Positions 1 through 19,353 of a stretch of DNA of 23,566 nucleotides are shown piece after piece; position 1 is the first letter of the stretch, and every line of letters begins with the position of its first letter. Position numbers and translations under genes: made by a program. The DNA lies in the IMG/VR virus record IMGVR_UViG_3300032242_000870, positions 1 through 23,566 of that record; one strand, 5' to 3'. The DNA comes from a virus. The notes beneath the pieces were generated by a model. That model was given only the letters and a program-made list of their open reading frames with translations. It ran no database searches and was not told the DNA's origin.

Positions 1-1646
1 CACCAGCACAGGTATTCAAAACGCTTGAGCCTTTATTTTTTAACCACGACATACTTACTGTCGGGCACAACTTAGTGTTTGACCTTACTTCTATCGCTAA
101 ATACTACAGCGGTAAAGTTCCAGTCGGCCCTTACTTTGACACCATGATTGCGTCGTTTATTTCAGATAACCGCAATAAGAACAAGTGCGGTCTAGATGCT
201 TGTCTCAAGCGTGAGTTTGGCTATGAGATGACCAAAGGCGTAGGCAAAGAAGTAGAGAAGTATTCCTTTAATGAGGTAGCTAAGTACGCATACCTTGATG
301 CCAAGTACACGTTCTTACTATGGAAGTCCTTGCTCCCTAAGATTAAAGAAGCACAGCTTGAGACAATTATGGACTTAGAGATGGAAGTTCTAAAGGTTCT
401 ATGCGAGATGAAACTTACTGGTGCTCCCATCGATGTGGAGCAACTAAAGATTTTAGATACACAATTACGTATTGACATTGAAACCGCTAGGGCAAACATT
501 TTTAAGATTGCTCAGAAACCTTTCAACATTAACTCCAACCAGGAGAAACAATTCCTGTTGTTTGCTTCTAAAAAAGAAGGCGGTCGAGGGCTTAAGACTA
601 AGGCTCTGACCCCTGCAGGCAAGAAGAAGAACAGGGAAGACCGCACTTACGCTGACTACTCAGTGGCTGCTGAAGCACTGGAGCTATTGCGTGATGAAGA
701 CCCTCTAGTAGAGGCACTGCTTGCGTACTCAGACCTTAACAAGTTGAGCACTACTTATGTAGTTCCTTACTTGGGTGGAGAAGTAGTTCGTACATTAAAT
801 GGAAAAGAAAAGCGTGAACAAAAAGAAAGTCTACTCATCAACGGAAGGATTCATTGTGACTTTGTACAGCACGGTGCGGAGACGGGTCGTTTTAGTAGCC
901 GTAACCCTAACCTACAGAATGTGCCTGCTCCTCATACGGCTCATGGAAAGGCAATCAGAAATCTTTTTTATGCGCCCGAGGGGTACAGACTTGTGGTGGC
1001 GGATTACTCGCAAATTGAACCACGTGTCATCGCATCTTTATCCGAAGACCCTATTATGATGGACAACTATTTGCAGGGCGGTGACATCTACACGGCTGTT
1101 GGAGATGCCATGGGTGTAGACCGCAAAGCAGGTAAGGTGCTTGTGCTTGCTATGGCATACGGCGTGGGACCCGACAAGATTTCACGTTCTATCGGGTGTA
1201 CGTTACAAGAAGCCAGAGACTTGTTATCAGATTTCTCTGAAAAGTTTGCCGCTGTAAATTTGTACCGTGCTCGATTGATTCGTTCAGTGAAACTTAACAA
1301 GGGCAACTATGTTAAGACAATGATGGGTCGCCGTAGGTATCTACCAGACATTACCTCCAGCGACCAGTACCTACGTTCTGCTGCAGAACGCCAAGTGTTT
1401 AATACTAAAATCCAAGGCACAGCAGCAGATTTAATTAAATACGCTATGATTAGGGCATACAACCGTTTGCCACAGGAAGCGAGACTCATTCTCACCGTTC
1501 ATGATGAGTTGGTCACGTTGACACCAGAAAACTTGGTAGATGAAACGGTTGAGGCAATTCGTGAAGCCATGGAAGGTATTAATACTTTGAAGGTTCCACT
1601 AGTTGCTGACATTAAAGTTGTTCAACGTTGGGGAGACGCCAAATGA
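1..1646 (+). CDS. polA: DNA polymerase I (family A), 5' end outside window
   Basis: Replicative family A DNA polymerase with a 3'-5' proofreading domain. The frame is open from base 3, and the residues before the first internal GTG (base 75) still read as exonuclease (VGHNLVFDL, the Exo II motif with Asn and Asp), so the true start and the Exo I DxE motif lie upstream of the window. Exo III is YAYLD at 285-299. The polymerase palm follows: motif A DYSQIEPRVIA from 1002, the O-helix (motif B) RKAGKVLVLAMAYG from 1122 with its Arg, Lys and Tyr conserved, and motif C VHDEL from 1497 with the catalytic Asp and Glu. The residue at the position of E. coli Phe762 is Leu (codon 1146-1148), a variant known from environmental viral PolA proteins. 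No 5'-3' exonuclease domain is visible. The stop overlaps the next gene in an ATGA. The identification is secure. Confidence 0.96.
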   Translation, partial: PAQVFKTLEPLFFNHDILTVGHNLVFDLTSIAKYYSGKVPVGPYFDTMIASFISDNRNKNKCGLDACLKREFGYEMTKGVGKEVEKYSFNEVAKYAYLDAKYTFLLWKSLLPKIKEAQLETIMDLEMEVLKVLCEMKLTGAPIDVEQLKILDTQLRIDIETARANIFKIAQKPFNINSNQEKQFLLFASKKEGGRGLKTKALTPAGKKKNREDRTYADYSVAAEALELLRDEDPLVEALLAYSDLNKLSTTYVVPYLGGEVVRTLNGKEKREQKESLLINGRIHCDFVQHGAETGRFSSRNPNLQNVPAPHTAHGKAIRNLFYAPEGYRLVVADYSQIEPRVIASLSEDPIMMDNYLQGGDIYTAVGDAMGVDRKAGKVLVLAMAYGVGPDKISRSIGCTLQEARDLLSDFSEKFAAVNLYRARLIRSVKLNKGNYVKTMMGRRRYLPDITSSDQYLRSAAERQVFNTKIQGTAADLIKYAMIRAYNRLPQEARLILTVHDELVTLTPENLVDETVEAIREAMEGINTLKVPLVADIKVVQRWGDAK

Positions 1647-2101
1647 AATGGAAGTTTTGGGAAAAGAAACCCGAGCTTGAGATTGTTATTGACAGTCATG
1701 AGATACCTACAAGCACATTGTTTCGGTGGTTCCTGTATGACAGTGGAGCGTCTGACCCTAATAAGATTGCTACCTCGGTAGGGTACACAGCCATCAGTTC
1801 TGAGGGTGAAGAGATGGAACTCAAAGAGTCCATTGAACGACTCCGTGAAGTAGAGCCTTACAAAAGTTTTTTAGATTTATTGTCCGAGATTACAGGGCAA
1901 GTAATGTCACATACTTTGGCAACTGTTTTGACAGAGAACGACATAGTTGAAGAAGAAATTGACAAAGAACAGCAAGCCATAATGGCTGAGGTCTACACCC
2001 GTGTAGCCAATCTAGCCTTAGTTCCTGCTTTCGCCGCTGCATTAAAGCTCGGCATTATTGTTAACCCAGGCACATTTACAGGAGACATTGATGAGTTCTG
2101 A
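1643..2101 (+). CDS. Hypothetical protein after polA, acidic helical
   Basis: A 152-residue protein of unknown function. I chose the ATG at 1643 because it overlaps the polymerase stop as ATGA and has GGGGAG about 7 bases upstream; an upstream TTG at 1628 in the same frame lacks this. It begins with a basic, aromatic stretch (MKWKFWEKK), followed by a mixed acidic region and a hydrophobic Ala/Leu-rich C-terminal part (about residues 120-140) that could pack as a helix. There are no Cys motifs and no nuclease or NTPase signatures. Translational coupling to the polymerase suggests a role in replication, but nothing in the sequence defines one. Confidence 0.85.
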   Translation: MKWKFWEKKPELEIVIDSHEIPTSTLFRWFLYDSGASDPNKIATSVGYTAISSEGEEMELKESIERLREVEPYKSFLDLLSEITGQVMSHTLATVLTENDIVEEEIDKEQQAIMAEVYTRVANLALVPAFAAALKLGIIVNPGTFTGDIDEF

Positions 2102-2462
2102 TTGGTATTCCCGTAGGCTAAACAACAACCCCCAGCCACAACCTAGCCCTTTGCCCCCCACAGCCCCGTCAGCGCCTATTCCGTACAACCCTAACCCGAA
2201 CCCACAAATCCCTCAGGAAGCCTTCAGAGCGCCTGAGAGCGCCGTTTCAGCCTCCCGCTGTCCTGGATGTGGCAGTGGCAATTACGGCAAGTCTGCGATG
2301 GCTCCAGAGGCTAAGGCACGATGCTACGATTGTGGCTACCCTGTAGTACAGTCTGGTAGTGGAGTAGGTAAAGGCATTACCCAGCAAGGTGGCGGAGCAC
2401 CTACCCCAGCCCGTCAGATTCAATCTGGCGGATTTAGTTGGGCTATCGGAGAGAAGATGTAA
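2091..2462 (+). CDS. Proline-rich zinc-ribbon protein
   Basis: A 123-residue protein. The ATG at 2091 has AGGAGA about 6 bases upstream and overlaps the preceding stop by 11 bases. Residues 13-45 are Pro/Asn/Gln-rich and probably disordered. Then comes a four-Cys zinc ribbon, CPGC at 57-60 and CYDC at 78-81, and a Gly/Gln-rich tail. Zinc ribbons of this kind usually bind nucleic acid or mediate protein contacts; no enzymatic motif is visible. Its position between polymerase and recombinase, with a 1-base TAATG overlap to the latter, suggests a replication accessory role by inference only. Confidence 0.85.
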   Translation: MSSDWYSRRLNNNPQPQPSPLPPTAPSAPIPYNPNPNPQIPQEAFRAPESAVSASRCPGCGSGNYGKSAMAPEAKARCYDCGYPVVQSGSGVGKGITQQGGGAPTPARQIQSGGFSWAIGEKM

Positions 2463-3520
2463 TGAACGCAGAGCTTTTAAAAACTATTGCACAAATTAAT
2501 AAAAAGAGTGGCATAGACCTTGTGGTACTTGGGTCTGACATTGGGAACCATGTATCTGCCCGTGTGAGTTCAGGCTCGTTGTCGTTAGATGTACTTCTTG
2601 GTGGCGGATTTCCTGTTAATAAATGGATTGAAATCGTAGGCGAAGCGTCTAATGGTAAGACTGCCGTAGCCCTTAAAACTATTGCTGCCAACCAGAAGCG
2701 TGACCCCAACTTCACCACTGTGTGGGTAGCCGCTGAAGATTGGGTACCTCAGTACGCAGAAATGTGTGGCGTAGATGTTAAGCGTGTGTTCGTTGTGGCT
2801 ACTAACATCATGGAAGAAGCATACGAGACTGTTCTTAAGCTTGTAGAGACTAAAGAGATTGACTGCGTGGTCATTGATTCACTTCCAGCCTTAGTACCCA
2901 CAGCCGAAGACGACAAGAACATGGATGAAGCGACTGTTGGTCGTGGCGCATTGCTTACAGGTAAGTTCTTTCGCAAGATGGGACAGGCTGCCAAGCGTTC
3001 CCTTACCGAAGAGGAACGACCCTTTATTGGCATTGTGATTAACCAGTACCGCATGAAGATTGGCGTTATGTACGGTGACCCCCGCACTACACCTGGCGGT
3101 GAGGCTAAGAACTACGCATTCTTTATCCGTATGGAGGTCAAGCGTGACGAATGGATTGAGGCTGGCGTAGGTCAGGACAAGCGCAAGGTCGGCCAGACCA
3201 TTAAGATTCGTTCGTTAAAGAACAAGACGGCGCCAATGCAAGAGCCAGCGTACCTAGACTTTTACTTTGCTGATGGCGGGGCATGTAGTGCAGGTGAGTA
3301 CGACTTTGCTAAAGAGATTGTCAGCCTTGGAATTTTGTACCGAGTTATTACCCGTGCTGGTGCCTACTACAGTTACCAAGACCGTAAATGGCAGGGTGCT
3401 AACGCTGTGGTAGAATCTATTAGAGAAGAGATTGACCTGAAGGAAGCTTTAGACCGTGAGGTACTTGACGTAGTACGAGCGAGTTCTAAGCACGTTCAGA
3501 GCGTGGCTGATGAAGTCTGA
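2462..3520 (+). CDS. RecA/UvsX-like recombinase
   Basis: ATP-dependent strand-exchange protein of the RecA superfamily, expected to coat single-stranded DNA and drive recombination-dependent replication and repair. It has 352 residues, close to bacterial RecA. Walker A is GEASNGKT at residues 60-67. Walker B is CVVIDS, with the Asp at 139. The FIGIVINQYRMKIG strand and the GDPRTTPGGEAKNYAFF stretch (about 205-221) match the RecA segment just before and within DNA-binding loop L2. The start is the ATG at 2462, overlapping the preceding stop as TAATG; a start at 2438 would extend further into the previous gene. Junction-processing nucleases lie downstream in the same operon. Whether it is closer to RecA or to UvsX cannot be judged by eye. 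Confidence 0.94.
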   Translation: MNAELLKTIAQINKKSGIDLVVLGSDIGNHVSARVSSGSLSLDVLLGGGFPVNKWIEIVGEASNGKTAVALKTIAANQKRDPNFTTVWVAAEDWVPQYAEMCGVDVKRVFVVATNIMEEAYETVLKLVETKEIDCVVIDSLPALVPTAEDDKNMDEATVGRGALLTGKFFRKMGQAAKRSLTEEERPFIGIVINQYRMKIGVMYGDPRTTPGGEAKNYAFFIRMEVKRDEWIEAGVGQDKRKVGQTIKIRSLKNKTAPMQEPAYLDFYFADGGACSAGEYDFAKEIVSLGILYRVITRAGAYYSYQDRKWQGANAVVESIREEIDLKEALDREVLDVVRASSKHVQSVADEV

Positions 3521-3842
3521 GGGACAGAAACAGTCAAAGAAGCATGAGAACAGACTAGCCAAATTAGTCGGCGGTACTACTAACGCCGCTAGCGGAGCCT
3601 TCTGGAGCCGCAAAGGTGATGTCCGTTCTGATGACCTACTTATCGAGCATAAGTGGACAGGCAAAAAACAAGTAACCGTTAAGTCGGATGTCTTGGAAAA
3701 GATAGTCAGGGAAGCAATCCTTGACGGTCGGATGCCTGTTCTCGGGTTCTACCTAAACGGTCAGAACTACGTAGCACTAACTGAAGATGATTTTCTGGAG
3801 ATGCGACAAAATCTTCAGGAGTGTAGGTGCGAGACCACCTAG
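3510..3842 (+). CDS. Hjc-like PD-(D/E)XK nuclease, putative Holliday junction resolvase
   Basis: A 110-residue protein with the layout of small archaeal and phage Holliday junction resolvases: an N-terminal acidic residue in a helix (Glu13), a Gly/Thr/Ser loop (GGTTNAASGAF, 21-31), then KGD with Asp37, and EHK with Glu46 and Lys48. These would form the PD-(D/E)XK metal site. A helix (residues about 59-71) and the PVLGFYLNGQNYVAL strands complete the fold. It overlaps the recA-like gene by 11 bases and the whiB gene by 16. Pairing with the recombinase supports a role in resolving recombination intermediates. A different DNA substrate for this superfamily is possible. Confidence 0.8.
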   Translation: MKSEGQKQSKKHENRLAKLVGGTTNAASGAFWSRKGDVRSDDLLIEHKWTGKKQVTVKSDVLEKIVREAILDGRMPVLGFYLNGQNYVALTEDDFLEMRQNLQECRCETT

Positions 3843-4141
3843 ATGTTGAAAATTGGCGAGCAGAAGCCAAGTGTCGAGGTATGGACACCGAACTTTGGTT
3901 CCCGCCAAGGGACAAAGAGCTTTACAAAACAATTGCTGACAAATCAAAAGCAGTCTGTTTAGGTAAAGACAGTCGGCCACCCTGCCCAGTCCGTAAAGAA
4001 TGCTTGTTGTACGCACATGAGAACGACGAGCAATTTGGTATCTGGGGTGGGCTAAGCCATAGAGAACGAAATGCTTTAGAGCGTAAAGCTCAGCGCAATG
4101 GAAAGACCCTCGAAGAGTGGGTAGAAAGCGAAGAACGATGA
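3827..4141 (+). CDS. whiB: WhiB-family Fe-S regulator with stretched Cys spacing
   Basis: WhiB-like proteins are actinobacterial [4Fe-4S] transcription factors that bind the principal sigma factor; phages encode versions that rewire host transcription. This 104-residue copy has Cys16, Cys44, Cys53 and Cys59, the CPVRKEC block, and the hallmark turn GIWGG (71-75) followed by a basic C-terminal region (SHRERNALERKAQR). The second and third Cys are normally CxxC; here eight residues (LGKDSRPP) separate them. The start is GTG 3827 with AGGAG about 7 bases upstream, giving the usual N-terminal WhiB sequence (WRAEAKC). Cluster binding may be altered by the insertion, but the rest of the family pattern is intact. 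It points to an actinobacterial host. Confidence 0.93.
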   Translation: MRDHLDVENWRAEAKCRGMDTELWFPPRDKELYKTIADKSKAVCLGKDSRPPCPVRKECLLYAHENDEQFGIWGGLSHRERNALERKAQRNGKTLEEWVESEER

Positions 4142-4443
4142 CCGAGTACACGCCCTTTAAATGTCCTGACTGTGGTGTATGGTGGAGAACTGCTACACAT
4201 AAGTGCGAACCAAAATCTTATTTAGCGCCTCCGACAACTACCACCACAGTGTCCGAGCAAGATAAAAAGAAAAAGGATTTGCCTAAAGGCAAGTCTAGGT
4301 GTACTGTGTGTGGTGAACCACTAGGTATTTACGAAATTGAAACTTGTTGGGAACACAAGAAGTATCGTAAGTACAGCCACCACTACAAAAAGGGGTACGA
4401 CAAGTATGGCAACCCAGACGAAAAAAGCAACTGGAAGTCTTAA
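4138..4443 (+). CDS. Double zinc-knuckle hypothetical protein
   Basis: A 101-residue protein. The ATG at 4138 overlaps the whiB stop as ATGA. The N-terminal knuckle is CPDC (9-12) with HKC (21-23). A Pro/Thr-rich linker with a Lys run follows. A second site is CTVC (55-58) with Cys70 and His73, then a strongly basic His/Tyr/Lys-rich tail (EHKKYRKYSHHYKKGY) suited to nucleic-acid binding. The last 38 bases overlap the next gene. The second half somewhat resembles HNH-type zinc frameworks, but I see no catalytic HNH arrangement, so I leave the function open. Confidence 0.84.
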   Translation: MTEYTPFKCPDCGVWWRTATHKCEPKSYLAPPTTTTTVSEQDKKKKDLPKGKSRCTVCGEPLGIYEIETCWEHKKYRKYSHHYKKGYDKYGNPDEKSNWKS

Positions 4444-5290
4444 GAATTTAGTAGACGCAGGTAAAACTCCGTCCGTTGTTCTTGGTGCGGTAGAGCGTTG
4501 GCAATTAGCCCAACCCGCTGACACTAGCCGACGGACGGATGTTTTGCATCCATCTGAAATCATCAAGCCAGATTGGTGCCCACGTGCATCCTGGCATTTG
4601 CTACAGGGTGCTAAGCCTGCACCAAAGAAGCTTACAACTAAGCAGATGCGTGTGTTTAAGCGTGGTCATCAGTTGCATGATGATTGGCAAGCTAACCTTG
4701 CTGCCATGGGTAAACTGTGGGGTGATTGGAAGTGTGCAATCTGCACTACCGTTGTAGCTCGTGAAAGTTTGCGCCCAAAGTTTTGCCCACATTGTGAGGG
4801 TGAAGATTTTATTTACGATGAAGTTCGTGTAGCCAGTGATGCACATCGTATTGAAGGTCATGCTGACGGCATCATTGTAGGCATAGGTAAAGAGCCACTA
4901 CTCCTTGAAATTAAATCCATTGGCGAGGGCACCATTCGTTGGGAAGACCCTTCAGCATGGATTGCATCAGGCAATGATTTTAAGAAAGCATGGGCGGCAC
5001 TAAACGCACCGTTTTACAGTCACATCATGCAAGCTCAGATGTACATGAAGTTACTTGAACTCATGTACGAAGGTACTATGTTTAGTTACCCTAAGAAAGC
5101 TGTCTTTATTTATGAGACCAAGGGTGACCAAGAAGTCAAAGAATTTGTTGTTCCAAAGAGCGACTTTGGTATCACAGACATCTTTGACAAAGCCCTCGAG
5201 ATAGCCAAAGCAATCAAAGCTGGTATAGAATTACCATGCGTAGACCAATCAGGTTCTTGCTCAAAGTGCGAGGTGTTTAATGGCAATTAA
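4406..5290 (+). CDS. Cas4/RecB-like Fe-S PD-(D/E)XK exonuclease with zinc-ribbon insert
   Basis: Probable DNA exonuclease of the Cas4/RecB group, generating or trimming ends for recombination. The start is the ATG at 4406, with AAAGGGG about 11 bases upstream; the 38-base overlap with the previous gene is unusual but gives the natural N-terminus. In 294 residues one sees the active-site Asp154 in GHADG, Glu168 and Lys170 in LEIKS, and a QAQMYM motif (209-214) matching the family QxxxY. Cys58 (DWCPRASW) and C-terminal Cys278, Cys285 and Cys288 match the one-plus-three Cys layout of the Cas4/AddB Fe-S cluster. An additional zinc ribbon (CAIC 110-113, CPHC 127-130) sits between the first cluster Cys and the catalytic core. 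No CRISPR genes accompany it; such genes are common in actinophage recombination modules. Confidence 0.9.
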   Translation: MATQTKKATGSLKNLVDAGKTPSVVLGAVERWQLAQPADTSRRTDVLHPSEIIKPDWCPRASWHLLQGAKPAPKKLTTKQMRVFKRGHQLHDDWQANLAAMGKLWGDWKCAICTTVVARESLRPKFCPHCEGEDFIYDEVRVASDAHRIEGHADGIIVGIGKEPLLLEIKSIGEGTIRWEDPSAWIASGNDFKKAWAALNAPFYSHIMQAQMYMKLLELMYEGTMFSYPKKAVFIYETKGDQEVKEFVVPKSDFGITDIFDKALEIAKAIKAGIELPCVDQSGSCSKCEVFNGN

Positions 5291-5765
5291 ATTGCGGGCT
5301 GAAGAAAGCCAAAAAACTATTGATGCAATTCGTTCACAAGGGTTTACCCTTGAGTCGGAATTCACAGGCTCTAATCCCATCATGCCGCATGACATCACTG
5401 ACTGCGATGACCTTGGGGTAATGCGCCTTTACCAAGAGTACAATGCTTACCTGCAGTTCATTCTGGCTCAGGTAACGTGTGCTCAGATTGATGAGCAGAA
5501 CGCTAAGAAACGTTTAGACATGGCTGAGGCTATGGCTATGGAAGAATACGCAGGCACAAAGATGACAGTGTCAGCCATTAAAGCAAAAATTTCTACTGAC
5601 AAGTCAGTGCAAAAACTTGCGGATGCTCAATCATTTGCTTATGATTACCGCAAGGGTATGGAAATGATGTACACGAACATTAAGTCAGACTGTGATTTTA
5701 TCAGTCGAGAACTTACCCGCCGAACGTCAGGGAACTTTAACCGAGTAGGCAAGTTCACCACATGA
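5280..5765 (+). CDS. Helical protein, possible recombination mediator
   Basis: A 161-residue protein overlapping the Cas4-like gene by 11 bases. After a short N-terminal part it appears almost wholly alpha-helical: residues about 45-95 are Ala/Gln/Glu/Met-rich, followed by a TKMTVSAIKAKISTD segment and a second long helix ending in a basic RELTRR stretch. I do not recognise a family. Its size, helical make-up and position in a recombinase and nuclease operon resemble UvsY-type mediators that load UvsX on SSB-coated DNA, but no diagnostic motif supports this, so it is a structural guess only. The coding call itself is firm. Confidence 0.82.
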   Translation: MAIKLRAEESQKTIDAIRSQGFTLESEFTGSNPIMPHDITDCDDLGVMRLYQEYNAYLQFILAQVTCAQIDEQNAKKRLDMAEAMAMEEYAGTKMTVSAIKAKISTDKSVQKLADAQSFAYDYRKGMEMMYTNIKSDCDFISRELTRRTSGNFNRVGKFTT

Positions 5766-8365: not shown

Positions 8366-8686
8366 ATGGCTAACAAGCCCCTAGCACCTACGCCAAATGC
8401 AACACCAGATAATGTTTTGGTGCAGAACGCTGCTGGCGAACCATCAAAGAACACCACAACTGTAGAGCGTATGGGACGTCAAGCTGCCGACCCTGCCGCA
8501 CAGCCACTTAGCGCACATCCGTATGCTCCAAAAGAACGTCACGGAGCAACTTATGGTATTCAGGTAGGTTTTGAAGCCCATACTGAACCAAGTGCAGGTG
8601 CGACTACTCATAATGGACATGTTGTTCCTTCCGCAGTAAATCGTTCACTGCCTAATTTCCAAATGGGTGCTACTGACTTGCACTAG
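8366..8686 (+). CDS. Hypothetical low-complexity protein
   Basis: A 106-residue protein rich in Ala, Pro, Thr, Asn and His with little predicted order, no Cys and no known motif. A strong ribosome binding site (AAAGAGG, 5 bases before the ATG) suggests high expression. It is transcriptionally isolated: a 61-base gap upstream, containing the palindrome AGGAATTCCT (8336-8345) and a short CTTTA/TAAAG hairpin touching the ribosome binding site, and an intrinsic terminator just downstream. Composition resembles the proteins encoded at 12201-14696, so a virion-associated role is possible, but this is only inference. Confidence 0.82.
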   Translation: MANKPLAPTPNATPDNVLVQNAAGEPSKNTTTVERMGRQAADPAAQPLSAHPYAPKERHGATYGIQVGFEAHTEPSAGATTHNGHVVPSAVNRSLPNFQMGATDLH

Positions 8687-10021: not shown

Positions 10022-10027
10022 TAGAAT
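10022..10027 (+). promoter_or_regulatory. -10 box TAGAAT for a leaderless gene
   Basis: TAGAAT followed by exactly six bases and then the ATG at 10034, in a 20-base gap that has no ribosome binding site. Transcription would begin at or within a base of the start codon. The same spacing occurs before the gene at 14758. No -35 element is obvious. Confidence 0.6.
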
Positions 10028-10033
10028 TGATGT

Positions 10034-10573
10034 ATGCCTAGCAGTCATCAGAACGTCCAGAACCTTGGCGCCAGTGGGTTGTACGGGACTAACACTACTT
10101 TTGGTGGTGGCGGTCAGCCTGTAGCCCGTGGTGAGTTGGATTTTCTACGCTTAGGCGTAGGCAGAGTTCCTTCTGCAGAATACCCTGATGGGTATCTGGG
10201 AACTATTCGTTCACGCCGTGATGACCGAGGGCGCCCTTCAAGCACGTCGGACACCGTCCTAAACAGCATGAAGCAGCGCCTCGGTCAGCGTGGCTACCAG
10301 CGTGGCGTACACCGTGGTGAACGTATTGACCCTAGCGATTACTACTACCCGACTGAATTATCGGCTGAGCGTGGCGTTCAGCGCCAAATGAAAGCCAAAT
10401 TTACAGGCAATACTTGGGAAACCCTACGTTATGTAGAGAACCAAATGCTTGTTCCTGCTCCACATTTACCTAATGATGGCAAAGCAGGCCCTAATGTGCG
10501 TAGCGATTCACCTTACGCAGTTAACGAGAAACGTGTGTCGCAGTTGTCGAACATGCGCCCAAGCTGGAGATAA
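10034..10573 (+). CDS. Hypothetical Gly/Arg-rich protein, leaderless start
   Basis: A 179-residue protein of unknown function that opens a run of eight similar genes. The N-terminal third is Gly/Ser/Asn-rich and probably disordered; the middle is rich in Arg, Gly and Tyr (RRDDRGRPS, QRGYQRGVHRGER, DYYYP); the C-terminal part is more helical. No enzymatic or Cys motif is seen. There is no ribosome binding site in front of the ATG, which instead stands six bases after TAGAAT. Its composition and its neighbours suggest a minor virion or DNA-binding protein, without direct proof. Confidence 0.82.
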   Translation: MPSSHQNVQNLGASGLYGTNTTFGGGGQPVARGELDFLRLGVGRVPSAEYPDGYLGTIRSRRDDRGRPSSTSDTVLNSMKQRLGQRGYQRGVHRGERIDPSDYYYPTELSAERGVQRQMKAKFTGNTWETLRYVENQMLVPAPHLPNDGKAGPNVRSDSPYAVNEKRVSQLSNMRPSWR

Positions 10574-10575
10574 CC

Positions 10576-12198
10576 GTGGCTAGAAAACCTCGTGCTGCTA
10601 ATGAATTTACTAAAGCAACTAATCGTACTTTAGGTAGGGCAACTAGTCCAAAAACTAAACCAATTGAAGACCCTTATGTAAAGATGATTAGCCGTCGTGC
10701 TAGGTCACGGGCTAAAGCTTATGAGGCTGAAAGAAAAGGCAGAATAATTGAGGGTGTGCCAGGTTACGGCACAGTTGACATGGATGAAGTAGGCTGGCAT
10801 GTTCCAGAACATCCAGACGATAATAACCCTAATAAAGTTACCATGCGAAACCTTTTGGGTTTAAGCGGAACTAGCAGTGTTCCAGGCATTAAAAAAGGTC
10901 CCGCAATTGATGAGCCTCACGAAGCCGAGCCTAACGTTCCTGTAGAGCGCCGTTATGAAGATTTAAACGATGCAGAAAAAACAAAAGCAGACACCGTTTT
11001 AGACCGAGTGGGGTCAAGCGTAGACATTGCATCTAAACACATTCAAGATTCGTATGACCGTGCACATTACCGTGCAATTTTAGGTTTTTCAGGTCAGCCT
11101 GCAGGTATTGGGTTTTACGGAGGCCCTTCTACTGAACATAAGATAAATAGTGAACTTATTGCACAAGTTATGGAACACCCAGAGTTTAAGGCTAGAGGAC
11201 TTACACAAGACCATGCTGTAGCCATGGTTAATGCTGCGATGGCGGCAACTAGCCCAAGACAAGCCGTTCAAGTAGGGTCAGGAAATAATGTTACTTACCC
11301 TAACCACGCCGCTGGTCGTGTGGGAGTTGAGCATGCATTAGCAGGGGGAGACCCCGAAGACGTTCCCAAAGCCCCACATGGTGGAATTCATCAAAACACT
11401 ATAAGAGGGGCAAAATTAGCTACGCAAACTCTTACCGAAGGTGCATTAATTCCAGAACTTTTTGCAGATTCAGGAATTAAAGTAAGAAATTTTGCGGGAG
11501 CAAAGTCTGTAGCCTCTAGTGCCGATGCTTTTAGGGTTAACGATGTACATTCAACAGGTACAGCGCTTCCACACTTAGCCACTGAGGCAAATAAAAAGTT
11601 TAGTGTAATTGACCCTAACGGTGTTGACACAGGACAGGTTCATGAGTACGAAGCCGAAGACGTAGATGAAAAAACTGGTCTTCCTAAAGCCATACATGCC
11701 AAAAAACGTTTAGCGCATCACAAATTAGAAGGCCACACTTACCAAATAGCCCTTGACTCAAAAGGTAAGCCAGCCAGAGGTGATTCACCCGTAGAAAAAA
11801 CAGTTAGAGATAATGTGGTGCATTCTGCTTTAGATTTGGCTGGTCGACGTGCTAATGCCGCAAAAGGTTTAGTTCCAACTGAACGCCATGCTCAAGCTAC
11901 GCACATTGGGCAAGAAATTGATTGGCGTGACCGTCAAATACTTCGTCCAGATTTACCGTACAGCCTTGAGACAGAGCATCCTGTAACCCATCCTTTAACG
12001 CATCCACTGGGAGTTCAAATACCAGGTGGGATGGACATTTTAAACCCTTTTGGTACAGGTAAACTTGTGGATACTACAATGCCAACCTTATCCTCAGCCC
12101 CTGATGGTGACTCAACAGATGTGGATAAGCCAAAAGATGTAACTGCCCCAGCAGCAAGAGCTGGCAGAACGTCATCATTTTCTGCTGGAAGAAGTTAA
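10576..12198 (+). CDS. Large unknown protein with a SP-rich conserved helical core
   Basis: A 540-residue protein from GTG 10576, with GGAG about 8 bases upstream inside the previous gene. The N-terminal 130 residues are basic and look disordered. The central part (about 155-260) is the ordered core: AHYRAILGFSG, FYGGPSTEHKINSELIAQ and AMVNAAMAATSPRQAV (216-231), then NHAAG and a GVEHAL helix. The block of a short aromatic/Gly segment, a helix, an Ala-rich SP motif, and Asn with a following helix resembles the DUF7178-type proteins of actinophages; I cannot confirm this by eye. The C-terminal 100 residues are Pro/Thr/Ser-rich. No catalytic residues can be named. It may be a virion-injected protein, given its length and disordered ends. 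Confidence 0.82.
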   Translation: MARKPRAANEFTKATNRTLGRATSPKTKPIEDPYVKMISRRARSRAKAYEAERKGRIIEGVPGYGTVDMDEVGWHVPEHPDDNNPNKVTMRNLLGLSGTSSVPGIKKGPAIDEPHEAEPNVPVERRYEDLNDAEKTKADTVLDRVGSSVDIASKHIQDSYDRAHYRAILGFSGQPAGIGFYGGPSTEHKINSELIAQVMEHPEFKARGLTQDHAVAMVNAAMAATSPRQAVQVGSGNNVTYPNHAAGRVGVEHALAGGDPEDVPKAPHGGIHQNTIRGAKLATQTLTEGALIPELFADSGIKVRNFAGAKSVASSADAFRVNDVHSTGTALPHLATEANKKFSVIDPNGVDTGQVHEYEAEDVDEKTGLPKAIHAKKRLAHHKLEGHTYQIALDSKGKPARGDSPVEKTVRDNVVHSALDLAGRRANAAKGLVPTERHAQATHIGQEIDWRDRQILRPDLPYSLETEHPVTHPLTHPLGVQIPGGMDILNPFGTGKLVDTTMPTLSSAPDGDSTDVDKPKDVTAPAARAGRTSSFSAGRS

Positions 12199-12200
12199 TA

Positions 12201-12548
12201 ATGCCTAATCTACAGAATGGCGTGTACTCTAATCGTCCTTGGATTGCGCCCCCAGAGGCTGCGTACCCTCCACAGGCTTACATCGGCCCATTTTCTAGTA
12301 ACCAAGAGCAGATGCTGACGCAGGCTATGCAGTCATGGAACATGACCTCAGCCCAATTGCAAGAGTATGTGCGCCCTAATTTACCTCAAATAGAGTTGTT
12401 TCCGCCTAAATACGGTTACAGTACCCAAGAATACGGGCTAGACGACATGGTAAACTTGAATGTTCCTGTAACTGAGCGAGTAGATACTCCAAACCCTGCC
12501 GCTCAAGCAGAAAGCTCGTCCCGAAATACGTTAGGATACGGTGTGTAA
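12201..12548 (+). CDS. Hypothetical Pro/Gln/Tyr-rich protein
   Basis: A 115-residue protein that begins two bases after the preceding stop (GGAAGAAG about 8 bases before the ATG) and whose stop overlaps the next start as TAATG. The N-terminal 35 residues are Pro/Tyr-rich; a central helix (NQEQMLTQAMQSWNMTSAQLQEYV) is the only clear ordered element; the rest is Pro/Asn/Ser-rich. No known motif. Its place in the 10034-14696 block suggests the same unknown process as its neighbours. Confidence 0.8.
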   Translation: MPNLQNGVYSNRPWIAPPEAAYPPQAYIGPFSSNQEQMLTQAMQSWNMTSAQLQEYVRPNLPQIELFPPKYGYSTQEYGLDDMVNLNVPVTERVDTPNPAAQAESSSRNTLGYGV

Positions 12549-13420
12549 TGGCTGTTCAAGCGCAAACTGGTGGAGGAAAAGGACCAACACAAGGTGGTGG
12601 CGGTCGTACCCAACCTAGAGTTACGCCTTCTGTAAGTAACCAACAGCCTTCAGGCGTCAACAGAGGTGCACAGTTCGGCAATCCTACAGTAACAACTCCT
12701 GCTACAGGCAGTTTGTTCAGCCAAATTGGTAACTCAATAGGTCATAGTTTAAGCGATGCATGGAACGGAGCCACCCATTTTATTGGTTCTGGCATTCACA
12801 ATTTGTTTGGCAACGATTCACAGCAACGTGCCGCTGAACAGCGAGTTCACGATGTAACAAGTCCAAAGACAACGGTTACTGTGCCAGGCTATAACAACAC
12901 AGGTCGTATTGACCCACTCAGCGGTTACCCTATCGGTAATTGGGCATACAATCAAGATAATTCAGGTGGCAATAGAGCAAATTTGAACGAGAATGCTAAC
13001 GGTCATGATGAGTATGGACAACCCACAACTACAGCACATGGATTCCATCTACAACCTGGTCAAACATTTATGTACCACGGAATGAAAGTAACTCAAGGCG
13101 ACTTTATGAAAGAAAAAGGAAGCAACGAGTGGGATGACTGGCGCCCAGTTAAAGACGTTGTTCCCGCTAAAACCATTACTACACAAGGAACTGGCGCTAA
13201 TACCAATTACCAATTAGGTAAGCAGGGTGCAGTAGGTGGCAATGGTGGGTCTTACCAGCTAGGTTCTGGTCTAACTGCTAATAATGCTGCAGTTACTGGA
13301 CGTGGTAATGGAAGTCTAACTAACGGTATGTGGTCTTACGGCGGTTCATCAGGGGGCTACTCTGGCGGAGCAACTGGTAGTTCCTTCCAAGGTATTACTG
13401 GAGACCCAATTGAGCACTAA
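12548..13420 (+). CDS. Gly/Asn/Gln-rich low-complexity protein
   Basis: A 290-residue protein dominated by Gly, Asn, Gln, Ser and Thr, including a QTGGGKGPTQGGGG opening and a Gly/Ser/Tyr-rich end (GGSSGGYSGGATGSS). A short amphipathic or hydrophobic segment is present at about residues 55-80 (SLFSQIGNSIGHSLSDAWNGATHFIGSGIHNLFG), which could touch a membrane. A more ordered patch, HGFHLQPGQTFMYHGMKVTQGDFMKEKG, lies near residues 160-190. No catalytic motif. Such a composition is typical of phage minor structural or ejected proteins, but the assignment is inferred. Its stop overlaps the next gene by 11 bases if that gene starts at TTG. Confidence 0.8.
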   Translation: MAVQAQTGGGKGPTQGGGGRTQPRVTPSVSNQQPSGVNRGAQFGNPTVTTPATGSLFSQIGNSIGHSLSDAWNGATHFIGSGIHNLFGNDSQQRAAEQRVHDVTSPKTTVTVPGYNNTGRIDPLSGYPIGNWAYNQDNSGGNRANLNENANGHDEYGQPTTTAHGFHLQPGQTFMYHGMKVTQGDFMKEKGSNEWDDWRPVKDVVPAKTITTQGTGANTNYQLGKQGAVGGNGGSYQLGSGLTANNAAVTGRGNGSLTNGMWSYGGSSGGYSGGATGSSFQGITGDPIEH

Positions 13421-13646
13421 TTTTGGTTTAATGGCTGACAGCACAGGCGAAGGCATGTCTGGGGCTACAGATGTTGACCTAGTTGCCCAGAAAAACCTTA
13501 AGAAAACCGTCTACAATGGTAGTAAAGAGTGCCGTGGATGCGGTACTTTACTTGACCCGTTTCAAGGTCTACACACGGATAAATGCCGTGGATGCCGAGA
13601 TAAAGCGTCAACCGAACATTTTAAGAACAGGATGGCACCGAAATGA
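13410..13646 (+). CDS. Zinc-ribbon small protein (TTG start favoured)
   Basis: A 78-residue protein with a classical four-Cys zinc ribbon, CRGC at 41-44 and CRGC at 59-62, in a basic context. I favour TTG 13410: it has GGAG about 8 bases upstream and makes an 11-base overlap with the previous stop, a spacing found at three other junctions in this window. The ATG at 13431 (71 residues) has no clear ribosome binding site. The stop overlaps the next ATG as ATGA. It probably binds nucleic acid or a protein partner. Confidence 0.76.
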   Translation: MSTNFGLMADSTGEGMSGATDVDLVAQKNLKKTVYNGSKECRGCGTLLDPFQGLHTDKCRGCRDKASTEHFKNRMAPK

Positions 13647-13849
13647 CCGTACCTTACCGCCGCTCACCTAATGCGGAAATGCGAGAAGGCTCGACTGATG
13701 GCAAATACCGTAAGCGCCGTCCAAACACAACTGTAGCCCAGGGAATGGGTGACCAGCAGGTTATGGCTAACCGTGATGGTCTGCATCCATACATGAACTA
13801 CGGGTTTATCAACTCTGAAGAGCCTAACAAAGTAAACCCAGGAGCATAA
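13643..13849 (+). CDS. Small basic hypothetical protein
   Basis: A 68-residue protein, Arg/Lys-rich in its first half (YRRSPNAEMREG, KYRKRRPNT) and Asn/Gly/Tyr-rich in its second. It begins by ATGA overlap with the zinc-ribbon gene and ends two bases before the next start. No motif is recognised. The charge suggests contact with nucleic acid or with an acidic protein surface. Confidence 0.75.
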   Translation: MTVPYRRSPNAEMREGSTDGKYRKRRPNTTVAQGMGDQQVMANRDGLHPYMNYGFINSEEPNKVNPGA

Positions 13850-13851
13850 TC

Positions 13852-14250
13852 ATGGCTGGAAAACACGCAAGCGGTAAAGTAAATGCCCCCAAAAGCCTTT
13901 CTGAAGCTGCAACAAACATTATTAAGGTACACCAAGACGCACAGCTTCTTGGAAACATGAAACCTGGTTCAACCTTAGAGCCATCAGGTCCTGGCAAAAG
14001 AGGAAAGCCATTAACTCAAGAAGTCGCACAAGCAGAATCCGATGCCGCTAATGCCGCAGGTTACACGATGGAAACCGCTAAAGCAGTTCATGATAACTCG
14101 GTGCAGGGTAAAGTTGCGTTTGACCCTTATGAAGCAAAGGCAAGGGTTTCAGCACCTACTGACCGTGGTGAAGACCCTCATCGCCGTCCTGCTGCCCCAC
14201 TAGTTCATCGAAACGAAGATTCTATCGTTAAATCCCCACCACGAGGTTAA
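13852..14250 (+). CDS. Hypothetical Ala/Lys/Pro-rich protein
   Basis: A 132-residue protein with a good ribosome binding site (CAGGAG, 7 bases before the ATG). It has two probable helices, SLSEAATNIIKVHQDAQLLG (15-34) and QEVAQAESDAANAAGYTMETAKAVHD (about 56-81), with disordered, basic ends rich in Pro, Arg and His. No Cys or catalytic motif. It may be a small virion or scaffold-like protein; this is inference from composition and position only. Confidence 0.78.
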   Translation: MAGKHASGKVNAPKSLSEAATNIIKVHQDAQLLGNMKPGSTLEPSGPGKRGKPLTQEVAQAESDAANAAGYTMETAKAVHDNSVQGKVAFDPYEAKARVSAPTDRGEDPHRRPAAPLVHRNEDSIVKSPPRG

Positions 14251-14252
14251 TT

Positions 14253-14696
14253 ATGTTTAACATGTCGTGGGTTGACAAGCAGGGGTATCTGTTATCCCAT
14301 GCCCCTGGTCAAGGTGCACCTAAAAAAGGTTGGTCACGCAACCAGCACATTGCTTACCGTGAGCCTGTTACGCAGGCTCGTCATTTGCGTGACCGCACCG
14401 CAGGAGAAACTGAGCAAGCGTGGCGTCATCGTGCAATGGGCTACTCCAATACAACTATGCCAGATGGTTCAACACTAGGCACTAACAGCGGACCTTACGG
14501 TGCTACTTACGACCCAAAGACTCGTGAAACTAACCTTGGTTGGGTAAGCACCAATCCTAAAACAGGTCAATTAGAGCCTAATAAAAATTACATTTCAGCC
14601 CAGCGTTCTGGTTTTGCCGATTTAGTTAACCGTGCACCTAACCAGTTTGCCCAGGTACGCCCGCAGGCTGTAACCCGCCCTTCAGTCACTCGCTAA
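14253..14696 (+). CDS. Hypothetical Asn/Arg/Tyr-rich protein, last gene of the block
   Basis: A 147-residue protein starting two bases after the preceding stop. Its first half is basic (HIAYREPVTQARHLRDRTAG, QAWRHRAMG) and its second half is Gly/Thr/Asn/Pro-rich with turn-forming sequence (DGSTLGTNSGPYGATYDPKTRETNLGW). An internal alternative ATG encodes MSWVDKQG from residue 4. No family recognised. It closes the 10034-14696 unit; a 61-base gap with an AT-rich palindrome follows. Confidence 0.78.
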   Translation: MFNMSWVDKQGYLLSHAPGQGAPKKGWSRNQHIAYREPVTQARHLRDRTAGETEQAWRHRAMGYSNTTMPDGSTLGTNSGPYGATYDPKTRETNLGWVSTNPKTGQLEPNKNYISAQRSGFADLVNRAPNQFAQVRPQAVTRPSVTR

Positions 14697-14733: not shown

Positions 14734-14759
14734 ATACTATTATGGTAAAATAATAGTAT
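14734..14759 (+). promoter_or_regulatory. 26-base palindrome over a -10 box and start codon
   Basis: ATACTATTAT (14734-14743) and ATAATAGTAT (14750-14759) form a perfect 10-base inverted repeat with a 6-base GGTAAA centre. The -10 candidate TAAAAT (14746-14751) lies within it, and the ATG at 14758 begins exactly six bases after that box. This is the geometry of a leaderless promoter covered by a dimeric repressor operator, or of a 5'-end RNA hairpin. Confidence 0.55.
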
Positions 14760-15303
14760 GGATTTTAGCGGTGCTATTGATTTAGGTGCAAAAGGCAATT
14801 CTGACGAGCCGATGATTCGGGTACTTGTTTGCCGTAATTGTAAGACAATTGAGGAGTTGCCCGATTACGAGGGCGACCCAGCAACTGACACATTATTAAA
14901 CATTCTTGTGTCTAAGCACCAAAAACCTGTTGAGCACATTGGTTTGCTTATGAAGTTCCCTTTCAAATACTGGGCTGTGCCTAAGATTCAAGCGGAGATT
15001 GTAAAGCAGATTAAGGGTGGTTCTGAAGGTCTTGACGCATTTCAGACTAACTTCTACGCCACTAAGAACCAGTTTGCTGAAGACGCTATGTCTTGTTACA
15101 GCGACCATAACCGCCCAAAGGGTCAATGTTCAGACTACAAGTCGGACAAAAAACTTCTTAAGCCAGATACTGACGCTGAACGTAAAGACGCAGGGCTTGA
15201 AAAAGCTGGAAAAACAGGCCCAAAGGTCTATTTATGCGACTTTTGCCCTGTTAAATCCTTTAACATGACTAAATCCAATGAGCATAAGGGGCTGTATAAG
15301 TAA
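14758..15303 (+). CDS. Conserved-type Cys-rich phage protein, leaderless
   Basis: A 181-residue protein with three Cys sites: CRNC (25-28) in a VLVCRNCKTIEELPDYEG context, CYSDHNRPKGQC (113-124), and CDFC (160-163). The Cys/His residues could make two zinc sites. Between them lies a helical region with AWVP-like and QTNFYATKNQFAEDA stretches. Proteins opening with a Cys knuckle followed by IEELPDY seem familiar from actinophages, but I know no function. There is no ribosome binding site: the ATG stands six bases after TAAAAT inside a palindrome, so the gene is probably leaderless and separately controlled. Confidence 0.82.
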   Translation: MDFSGAIDLGAKGNSDEPMIRVLVCRNCKTIEELPDYEGDPATDTLLNILVSKHQKPVEHIGLLMKFPFKYWAVPKIQAEIVKQIKGGSEGLDAFQTNFYATKNQFAEDAMSCYSDHNRPKGQCSDYKSDKKLLKPDTDAERKDAGLEKAGKTGPKVYLCDFCPVKSFNMTKSNEHKGLYK

Positions 15304-15353: not shown

Positions 15354-15554
15354 ATGTTCTTAGAGGTTGCTTGCCAATGCTCTGCGATGATTCAACTAGA
15401 AGTTGATAAGTCAAAGGAAGACGCTGCATGGTTGTTGTTAGGGCGATTTGCTAGCGCACATTCTGCTTGTGGTTTTGTAACACCGTTACTTGAAGAACGC
15501 CCCGAGTTAACAAAAAGATTAAACATTAAGACAACTCCTGAAAAGGATGCTTAG
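15354..15554 (+). CDS. Small hypothetical protein with a CxC motif
   Basis: A 66-residue protein. The ATG at 15354 is preceded at 8 bases by AGAGG, which rules out the in-frame GTG at 15345 lying on that site. It begins MFLEVACQCSAMIQLEV, then a helix (KEDAAWLLLGRFASAHSACG) and an acidic/basic end. Cys at 7, 9 and in HSACG could bind metal. A TAGAAT at 15315-15320 in the 50-base gap may be a -10 box. Its stop overlaps the next start by one base (TAGTG). Confidence 0.72.
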   Translation: MFLEVACQCSAMIQLEVDKSKEDAAWLLLGRFASAHSACGFVTPLLEERPELTKRLNIKTTPEKDA

Positions 15555-16486: not shown

Positions 16487-16545
16487 CTATGTGGTAGGTT
16501 CATACTATAGGGGCAACAAGTAACCACTTACTACCTGGAGTATTG

Positions 16546-17262
16546 ATGAAGACTAAAGAAACTATTGCAATCGCTTGGGCGCACACAGGAAAAGTTGATA
16601 CTGAGTTCTGTCTAAGTTTGATGGAAATTATCCGCCAAAAAGGACCCAAAGTTGGTTCGTTTTACTGTGTAGAGGGAACAGGGTTACTGGCTAAGAGCCG
16701 TAACATAATGGTTAAGCATTTCCTCGACAATACTTCAGATGACTGGCTGTTGATGCTAGATGATGACGAACGTATTTCCGTACAGGCGTTTGACCTGTTA
16801 TCTGCTACGGCTGACAAGATTGAGCGTCCTGCTGTTGCTGGTTTGTATTTTGCCGCCCTATGGGACGGACTAAACCTACGCCCCGTTCCGCTTATTTTTA
16901 AGCAGACCGAAGACGGTGGCATCCAGCCTGTTGATGATTATCCAAAAGATAGCGTCATACCCGTTGTTGCCGCAGGAACGGGCTGTATTCTAATTCATCG
17001 TGACGCTCTAAAGAAGATTAGAGACGGTCACGGTGAAGATAATCAAGATTGGTGCTGGTTCCAGGACGGCCCGATTGGTGGCAACAAGTGGCTTTCCGAA
17101 GATTTGTCATTCTGTGCCAAGTTGGGGCAGTTCGAGATTCCATTGGTAGCCAATACAGGTGCTGTCCTTCAACATCATAAAGAGTTCTGGGTAGACGCCG
17201 CTCACCACGACTCATGGTTACAAAATAACGAGGCTGGTAGCGGATTGGCACAGTTACAGTAA
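16546..17262 (+). CDS. GT-A family glycosyltransferase (GT2-like)
   Basis: A 238-residue enzyme expected to move a sugar from a nucleotide sugar to an unknown acceptor, in phages often modified DNA, virion protein or host surface polymer. Residues 66-76 read DWLLMLDDDERIS, giving the metal-binding DxD (Asp72-Asp74). An AGTGCILIHRDAL segment, WLSEDLSFC (Glu185-Asp186, the usual acidic catalytic pair) and QHHKEFW near the end complete the GT-A layout. No membrane segment. I chose the ATG at 16546, with GGAG five bases upstream; a TTG directly before it is too close. The 59-base gap ahead has TACTAT (16503-16508), a possible -10 box. Confidence 0.9.
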   Translation: MKTKETIAIAWAHTGKVDTEFCLSLMEIIRQKGPKVGSFYCVEGTGLLAKSRNIMVKHFLDNTSDDWLLMLDDDERISVQAFDLLSATADKIERPAVAGLYFAALWDGLNLRPVPLIFKQTEDGGIQPVDDYPKDSVIPVVAAGTGCILIHRDALKKIRDGHGEDNQDWCWFQDGPIGGNKWLSEDLSFCAKLGQFEIPLVANTGAVLQHHKEFWVDAAHHDSWLQNNEAGSGLAQLQ

Positions 17263-17375: not shown

Positions 17376-17860
17376 TTTTCCTTGACGGAGTAATGCGTAA
17401 GCATAAAGACCAGTCAGTAATTATGGAGGGCGTGTCCCTTTACAAGTCGTTAAATGAGACCAATCGTGTCATTGTCGTAGCTGATGACCGTGAACGAGCC
17501 AGTATTTGGATGAAAACCAACAACTTGGCTAAAAAGATTGATGACATTTATCAAACAGTAACTACGGTAGATGATGATGCCCGATTAACTACGGTCGAAT
17601 CCCTCAGAAGCCGAGGGAAGGTTGATTATGTCCTCACGGAAGACCCTGAATTTGCTAAAAAACTATTAGAAAATGGCATTAGTGTATTAGTTTTTCTTAA
17701 TCCTAGATACACCCGCCCAGAATTTAGGCCAGATGGCCGCCTGGGGGCAAAGTCATGGACTGACATTACTGATGAGTTAGATAAACAGCAGGGTTTGTAC
17801 GATGAAGACCGCCGATTAAAGGAGGAAGACGAATTAGAGGAAGTAGAACTTGACCTGTGA
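17363..17860 (+). CDS. HAD-like protein lacking the catalytic nucleophile
   Basis: A 165-residue protein with the outline of a small HAD-superfamily domain: SVIVFLDGVMRK at the N-terminus where HADs have hhhDxDGT/V, then NRVIVVADDRERASIWM, comparable to the second motif region, and DYVLTEDPEFAKKLLENGISVLVFLNPRYTRPEF near residues 90-125. The first, nucleophilic Asp of DxD is Phe6, while Asp8 remains, so normal phosphatase chemistry is not expected. The C-terminal 25 residues are almost all acidic. The start is the ATG at 17363, 13 bases inside the previous gene; the ribosome binding site is weak, so translational coupling is likely. The stop makes a GTGA overlap with the next gene. Confidence 0.75.
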   Translation: MSVIVFLDGVMRKHKDQSVIMEGVSLYKSLNETNRVIVVADDRERASIWMKTNNLAKKIDDIYQTVTTVDDDARLTTVESLRSRGKVDYVLTEDPEFAKKLLENGISVLVFLNPRYTRPEFRPDGRLGAKSWTDITDELDKQQGLYDEDRRLKEEDELEEVELDL

Positions 17861-19353
17861 AACTAATTTATTTGGGTGCGGATGTACCTAGCAATCGTGT
17901 AATCCTTGAGTCAATGAATGTCAAGGATGTCGGCGTGTCGTTCTGGCGGTTGACCCAGCGTGGGTTACCCAAAAGCAAAAGATACTTGCTTAGTAACTAC
18001 TTTAATGACGACATGCGTATTCATGTTCACCCTGGAGTACCTGAAAAAAACCAGATTTCTGGTGAAGATTTAGATAATTTTGCTGCGGAGTACGAAGACT
18101 TCCTTGCACACAACATGGATAGGCTTGAATCATTTATTGAAATAGACCATCCTACTTTAGATAAGCATGCTATTAATTTACAGCGTCAAGCCGCTTGGTC
18201 TGAAGAAGATAAGTTTTGGGCAACCTTGCGTGAGGATAATTCTTACAGCGAATTTGCCGAGATGTGTCAGCAATACAAGAATGTGGCAATTCCTTACAGC
18301 ATTATTGAGGCGGATGTATCATTAGCCGCTAAAACTAGGTCATTGACCAATCAATACGGCACGGTATTCCATGCCTTAGCCTGTGCCAAGCCTGATAATT
18401 TACGCCAGATTCATGTAGAGACCGCTAGCACACAGTCATGGCTGTCTCCAATGATGCGTGGCGAGACCATCGTGTGGGATGGCACTAAGTTACTTCGTTA
18501 CCCTAAGAAGATGAAAGACCAAGCCCGCCCAAGATACAAAGCAGTCTATGAGAAAGCTGGACTGGATTTTGATAAAATTATTAATGACGACCCCATTGAG
18601 GTGGCTAAACTCGCCCTTTGGTCGTATGACCAATTTGAGGAGCGATTTAACATGGCTAACAACCCCTTTTTTACCCCTGAAGATGACGATGATGAGTTCG
18701 GACTCTTATCAGATAACAGTGGTATCTTGCATGATGACGATTATGCGGAAACACCCCTCCCTGTAATTGATAAGAGGGGTGGTGAGATGCGGAAACTTAA
18801 CACCCGTAGTGCAGACGAAATGATGACCTTACCTGTGTTCGGAGCAGAGGTTAAGACCATTGTTGAGAAAGATGAGAACGGTGTAGACATCATCAAAGAT
18901 GTGCCGTTGTTACGCTCAAGCCAAGTTAGTTTGCGTATGTGTGACACCTGTTTTGTTGCGTCTAATTGCCCTGCGTTTAAGGTTAATAATAACTGTGCTT
19001 TTAATTTGCCTGTTGAAGTAAAAACTAAAGAACAGCTACGAGCTTTGCTTAACGCCATTGTAGAAATGCAGGCTCAACGCATTGCGTTTGCTAGATTTTC
19101 TGAAGAATTGAACGGCGGTTATCCAGACCCTAACACGGGTCAAGAGATGGATAGATTATTAAAATTAATTAAAAATGCAAAGGATTTGGATGATAACTCA
19201 TCCTTCGTTAAGATGACTGTCGAGGCTCGTAATTCGGGCGGAGTCCTGTCACAGATTTTTGGTGAACGAGCAAATAACTTGACTGAATTACCTAACGGCG
19301 GATTCAATGATGAGCAAGTTACACGCATCATTCAGCAAAGTATTGAGGACTAA
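17857..19353 (+). CDS. Large unknown protein with a four-Cys site and acidic linker
   Basis: A 498-residue protein starting at GTG 17857 in a GTGA overlap with the HAD-like gene. The N-terminal 250 residues look like an ordered alpha/beta domain, opening MKLIYLGADVPSNRVILE and including WLSPMMRGETIVWDGTKLLRYPKK and a LALWSYDQFEERF helix. A very acidic linker follows (TPEDDDDEFG). A four-Cys cluster, C362-x2-C365-x5-C371-x8-C380, then binds zinc or an Fe-S cluster. The C-terminal 110 residues are helical. The combination is reminiscent of large conserved actinophage proteins of unknown role, and I cannot assign an enzyme class. It directly precedes the ribonucleotide reductase. The coding sequence contains an inverted repeat at 18752-18781. 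Confidence 0.85.
   Translation: MKLIYLGADVPSNRVILESMNVKDVGVSFWRLTQRGLPKSKRYLLSNYFNDDMRIHVHPGVPEKNQISGEDLDNFAAEYEDFLAHNMDRLESFIEIDHPTLDKHAINLQRQAAWSEEDKFWATLREDNSYSEFAEMCQQYKNVAIPYSIIEADVSLAAKTRSLTNQYGTVFHALACAKPDNLRQIHVETASTQSWLSPMMRGETIVWDGTKLLRYPKKMKDQARPRYKAVYEKAGLDFDKIINDDPIEVAKLALWSYDQFEERFNMANNPFFTPEDDDDEFGLLSDNSGILHDDDYAETPLPVIDKRGGEMRKLNTRSADEMMTLPVFGAEVKTIVEKDENGVDIIKDVPLLRSSQVSLRMCDTCFVASNCPAFKVNNNCAFNLPVEVKTKEQLRALLNAIVEMQAQRIAFARFSEELNGGYPDPNTGQEMDRLLKLIKNAKDLDDNSSFVKMTVEARNSGGVLSQIFGERANNLTELPNGGFNDEQVTRIIQQSIED

Follow-up and report, generated by a model that had tools for sequence, protein, structure and literature searches.

A conserved gene framework with exchangeable, tagged cargo in a group of mainly lake-derived myophages

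What eight consecutive genes of no recognisable family do for a phage is the question raised by the block at positions 10034-14696 of IMG/VR virus record IMGVR_UViG_3300032242_000870, whose 23,566 nucleotides were analysed in full (the window). The eight open reading frames (ORFs, named A to H) lie on the + strand and are tightly packed, with junctions of -11 to +2 bases. A preliminary description made from the letters alone had called them low-complexity genes that start at a leaderless promoter and match no nameable module, and these points held up. The hydrophobic fraction of the eight proteins is 0.18-0.30, below the 0.33 that the ORFs of eight related genomes taken together reach on average, and the proteins are basic or neutral for the most part, with C acidic. 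A leaderless promoter precedes A (Table 1), and PHROGs, Pfam and NCBIfam gave no family for any of the eight genes, with weak sub-threshold matches at most; the structural or packaging profile match that the description had named as counterevidence did not appear in these three databases. Comparison with other phages, which the description had recommended, revealed what the single sequence could not: a conserved framework mixed with swappable, tagged cargo. As had been proposed, the block forms a single operon-like unit; it is composed of two evolutionary parts, four framework genes and four variable cargo genes. We propose, at about even odds, that it is a cassette of sorted, packaged and injected effectors resembling the T4 internal proteins, with a new tag.

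Conserved framework and exchangeable cargo

Related loci were drawn by the metallophosphoesterase (MPE) gene (18 loci) and by gene A (447 stretches, of which the best 80 of 447 were kept), and presence was counted by tblastn over 81 loci, window included. Their sequences divide the block into a conserved framework of A, C, E and F, closed by the downstream gene I, and three cargo slots named by the flanking framework genes (A/C, C/E and F/I). The framework genes and I keep their order and occur in 67 to 81 of the loci, and B, D, G and H in one to five (Table 1). Identity of the framework between genomes is on par with that of portal and polymerase.

Slot contents were surveyed in 53 non-redundant loci by collecting the ORFs between framework genes. 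Gene calling took the longest ORFs, and a number of the small cargo ORFs may therefore not be real genes. The contents are mostly unrelated between genomes, the 239 cargo ORFs falling into 102 clusters, 76 of them singletons. Slots can also be empty: nothing separates A from C in L004 and L014, or C from E in L006 and L009. Two near-identical genomes, L007 and L008, share 98.8% identity in recA, 98.7% in MPE and 99.3% in A, and their A/C and C/E cargo is unrelated, which points to recent exchange. The cargo is basic and disordered, with a median isoelectric point of 9.5 versus 5.9 and a hydrophobic fraction of 0.21 versus 0.33.

A short tag on unrelated cargo proteins

In the first loci, PPDRGSDPSRRP-like stretches were noticed by reading at the ends of otherwise dissimilar cargo proteins. 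This main tag has the consensus PxDR[GSA]xDxxR, in which R10 is invariant and R4, D3, P1 and D7 are next in conservation. A position matrix built from 26 instances in the 14 nearest genomes was tested on the 39 others at a score of at least 14. It matched 31 of 165 cargo ORFs versus 0 of 991 ORFs outside the block in these held-out genomes, which are kin of the training genomes and hence not independent of them. Among the controls, no match was found in 363 antisense block ORFs or 3300 shuffled sequences. In 20 further, more distant loci, the tag was present in 3 of 69 cargo ORFs versus 0 of 320 others.

For the total census of the 53 genomes a cut-off of 13 was used, at which 58 cargo proteins in 32 genomes carry the tag. 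After masking of the tag their bodies form 39 clusters, and the tagged proteins are therefore largely unrelated. The site is usually terminal, being N-terminal in 32 proteins (7.5 expected), C-terminal in 11 (5 expected) and internal in 15. Codons at the conserved positions broadly follow ordinary synonymous usage, so that it is the protein rather than the DNA that is conserved, which indicates selection on the tag at the protein level. The tag is nearly confined to the cassette: outside the block, the eight near-complete genomes show clear tags only at a second site, present in two of them (G001 and G002) and located in the late region towards the terminase end. At this site in G001 (L135, G001:78001-88679; about 154-5482), a tagged protein of 78 amino acids is encoded 5' of the terminase gene. 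Its neighbours resemble by eye an ADP-ribosyltransferase (ART), an HExxH metallopeptidase and an HNH nuclease, of which Pfam supports only the HNH nuclease, and that weakly (E 0.017).

Of 4824 distinct ORFs, 8 bear a second tag, PDGDSTDVDKP; all are A/C cargo, and they belong to three unrelated kinds of protein, B included. Within the window, G carries the main tag, B the second tag, and D and H neither. C-terminal RG endings are also enriched, in 11 of 203 cargo ORFs versus 4 of 1065, an excess that comes partly from homologous proteins. A limited full-text literature search found no account of such a tagged cassette.

Gene products and genomic setting

Table 1 Features of the eight-gene block and its borders in the window. 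Loci, number of the 81 loci in which the gene is present.
Feature	Position	Strand	Loci	Description
-10 element TAGAAT, leaderless promoter	10022..10027	+		6 nt 5' of gene A ATG; equivalent site before A in most of 53 relatives
Gene A, framework	10034..10573	+	81	179 amino acids, basic, Gly/Arg-rich; 63-94% identity in MPE-drawn set; BRock gp48 homolog
Gene B, cargo, slot A/C	10576..12198	+	1	GTG start; 540 amino acids; ordered core at about residues 126-430, disordered ends
Second tag PDGDSTDVDKP	12100..12132	+		B residues 509-519
Gene C, framework	12201..12548	+	79	115 amino acids, acidic; BRock gp47 homolog
Gene D, cargo, slot C/E	12548..13420	+	3	290 amino acids, Gly/Asn-rich
Gene E, framework	13410..13646	+	75	78 amino acids; conserved CxxC...CxxC zinc-ribbon-type motif
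Gene F, framework	13643..13849	+	73	68 amino acids, basic; BRock gp45 homolog
Gene G, cargo, slot F/I	13852..14250	+	3	132 amino acids; tagged relatives only in L005/L032 and L054
Main tag PTDRGEDPHRR	14155..14187	+		G residues 102-112
Gene H, cargo, slot F/I	14253..14696	+	5	147 amino acids; relatives in L011, L013, L015 and L027
-10 element TAAAAT, leaderless promoter	14746..14751	+		6 nt 5' of gene I; similar site in near relatives
Gene I, conserved, far border of cassette	14758..15303	+	67	181 amino acids, Cys-rich; BRock gp42 homolog

The largest cargo protein of the window, B, had been described as having an ordered helical core. Its predicted structure does place a largely helical core there (Table 1), in a model of low confidence, and a fold search with this low-confidence model gave no meaningful match. 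Relatives of B, all distant, were found only in a Terracoccus provirus, where its position is kept, and on contigs L175, L177/L178 and L179. The order of motifs in its core resembles that of DUF7178 (PF23802), a family that occupies the A/C slot in some genomes, while DUF7227 (with a weak GP88 match) occupies it in others. This assignment of B was rejected and kept as a lead only, as no Pfam match and no significant hmmsearch or hhalign match was obtained; deeper alignments reached an hhalign E of 0.003 at a probability of 11-12%, with different alignments matching different parts. A protein of L005 shares the C-terminal 70 residues of D and differs from it elsewhere. The true start of E may lie a few codons downstream of 13410, and the zinc knuckles previously ascribed to the block correspond to the conserved CxxC pair of E, which is of the ribbon type.

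The DUF7178 cargo protein of L013 has a high-confidence predicted fold (mean pLDDT 87) that matches parts of large phage proteins, some of them annotated as polyvalent or ART-PolyVal, and a DUF7178 relative forms the C-terminal part of a 1319-amino-acid protein with HExxH-type motifs. No PDB fold matched DUF7178 significantly, and the top hits by probability were DNA glycosylases (OGG1 0.69, AGOG 0.44), an identity that we do not claim. Two tagged A/C cargo proteins (L047:10792-11217 and L062:10542-10964) look by eye like small ARTs, which recalls T4 Alt. They have no match in Pfam, and searches of PDB sequences with one ART-like cargo protein and with B were both negative. Some cargo was read by eye as ART-like, HExxH-like or ParB-like; Pfam gave no support, and these readings were set aside. 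Cargo proteins with any recognised domain showed one family each, and the cargo is small.

The 23.6 kb window also encodes a family A DNA polymerase, a UvsX-like recombinase, a Cas4-like exonuclease, a RuvC-like resolvase, MPE, a glycosyltransferase, a TGT-like protein and a ribonucleotide reductase. WhiB and SpoVS-like proteins were read from the sequence, and searches for RNA families and tRNAs in the window found none. Scans of the block for sigma-70-type promoters and for terminators gave no more sites than shuffled sequences. The presence of terminase, portal, major head protein and tail sheath on related contigs of 88-100 kb identifies the group as myophages. It is a large set, mainly from lake metagenomes, with Streptomyces phage BRock (described as a myovirus; PMC7453282) as a distant relative. 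The nearest cultured relatives found through gene A are the Streptomyces phages BRock, GiJojo, LuckySocke, Alone3 and pSt2308.

Actinobacteria are probably the hosts of the cassette-bearing phages; genome records name a host for one relative only, in Terracoccus. This BRock-like relative lies inside a 1.1 Mb contig of Terracoccus sp. 273MFTsu3.1 (L174, NZ_KB911820.1), and at least one member of the group thus appears to be integrated as a provirus. Homologs of A, B and I keep their order in this relative, an observation that covers L174 together with a 100.6 kb virus record (L176).

Homologs of the framework genes are found in Streptomyces myophages. In BRock (Borockvirus), gp49-gp36 include homologs, in the same order, of the window gene at 8366, A, C, F, I, the genes at 15554 and 17348 and the TGT-like gene. 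BRock differs in lacking cargo among A, C and F, apart from gp46 between C and F, and in having no tag in real genes; candidate tags in its first 100 kb (of 112.5 kb) and in the Terracoccus provirus were rejected, as the matches read as antisense or wrong-frame ORFs. The F/I position of BRock is taken by peptidoglycan hydrolases; next in order come the I homolog, one further gene and the endolysin. This adjacency to cell-wall hydrolase and endolysin genes suggests that the framework is expressed late.

Three neighbouring genes deserve mention. The gene at 8366-8686, 5' of the block (BRock gp49 homolog), is a conserved low-complexity gene, basic in most relatives, and may be part of the framework. 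The TGT-like protein (17857-19353), kept across the group and annotated as DpdA-like in GiJojo, may be involved in 7-deazaguanine DNA modification. The glycosyltransferase gene (16543-17262) adjoins the cassette in near relatives, and a homolog lies amid structural genes at G002 63856-64551.

Candidate function of the cassette

The sequences show a hypervariable cassette in which the small conserved genes A, C, E and F provide a fixed framework around slots for interchangeable genes, whose products are basic and mostly disordered or effector-like. We suggest that the main tag would serve as a sorting signal directing the cargo to one place, most likely into the assembling head via some framework, scaffold or capsid protein. 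The packaged cargo would then be injected with the DNA and, in the manner of the T4 internal proteins, first target the defences or the machinery of the host. We infer packaging from the tag, the swapping of cargo in near-identical genomes, the basic and disordered composition, the polyvalent-type domains, the second tagged site in the late region of two genomes and the adjacency of the BRock framework to lysis genes. The preliminary description had offered ejected or minor virion proteins, a decoy or condensate-forming set, or a host-takeover island as options; the first, which overlaps with host takeover, is the best supported though unproven, and nothing specific was found for a condensate or decoy set.

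The closest parallel is provided by the internal proteins of T4, a highly diverse set whose sole common feature is the capsid targeting sequence (PMC3012670), and of which Ip1-3 each block a distinct GmrSD enzyme (PMC12373910). Both systems combine diverse small proteins, one short common signal, variable loci and exchange among close relatives. Unrelated bodies bearing one short signal are seen here in the tagged proteins and in the held-out test, and locus content that differs between close relatives is seen in L007 and L008. The signal is strictly N-terminal in T4 but N-terminal, C-terminal or internal here, the tag sequence is another one, the cargo is interleaved with a framework, the hosts are probably Actinobacteria, and packaging is proposed. 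In P1, a protein needs no more than the first 30 residues of DarB to enter the capsid (PMC9024508), which resembles the short terminal segment of the present cargo; P1 has, however, a fixed set of large proteins, whereas the cassette proteins, which would be packaged, are swappable and mostly small. Polyvalent proteins, argued to be packaged and injected (PMC5512222; Iyer et al. 2017), have parts that match the DUF7178 cargo by fold. They carry several domains per polypeptide, whereas the domains of the cassette are found on separate small proteins.

Several observations weigh against packaging and injection. No block protein is known from a virion, and the block is located away from the structural genes. 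At the census cut-off, the main tag is missing from 181 of 239 cargo ORFs and altogether from 21 of the 53 genomes; its frequency varies by clade and is lower in the more distant set. The 15 internal tags of 58 depart from the N-terminal T4 signal. The cultured phage BRock has the framework without cargo or tag, which implies that the framework serves some other, older purpose.

The main rival is an intracellular counter-defence or host-takeover island, unpackaged, in which the tag would bind a common partner; framework proteins, the replication machinery and a host polymerase, ribosome or protease are candidates. The absence of virion evidence is in line with this, swapping of cargo in near-identical genomes is typical of arms-race genes, and the cassette has its own leaderless promoter and sits by replication genes. 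A terminal tag on 39 unrelated bodies is nevertheless more typical of particle sorting as in T4 and P1, DUF7178 recurs in polyvalent-type proteins, and the BRock neighbours are of late type; we regard such an island as the less likely reading. It is improbable that framework and cargo are simply minor structural components, serving in head decoration, in head-tail joining or as scaffold, with disordered parts that evolve fast and a tag that binds the capsid with no injection. Their basic, disordered composition, the framework identity comparable to portal and polymerase and the homologs in Streptomyces myophages would fit, but no structural or packaging profile matched, and the cargo is dispensable and swapped for unrelated proteins, some in enzyme-like domain families. 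The tag as the relic of a DNA-level recombination site for gene exchange, its peptide functionless, would explain its frequent place at gene ends in a region of frequent exchange, but this is highly improbable given the varied placement on 39 different bodies, and it was rejected on codon usage.

Returning to the packaged-effector cassette, a bolder form of it is possible, if somewhat doubtful: a new phage protein-sorting code, in which a tag at either end or internal is read by a framework without recognised outside relatives and loads reshuffled effectors into the virion for delivery to the host. As a packaging signal, the tag would in any case add one more labelling system to those of T4 and P1, and possibly a delivery tool for Actinobacteria. 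The framework proteins A, C and F are defined targets in the search for a receptor, and the cultured BRock-type Streptomyces phages open the framework to testing. The genes of this phage group are almost wholly uncharacterised. If the tag is a packaging signal, it would supply a sequence rule for listing the injected effectors of a large, mostly uncultured group of phages, and any tagged protein would become a candidate effector against host defence.
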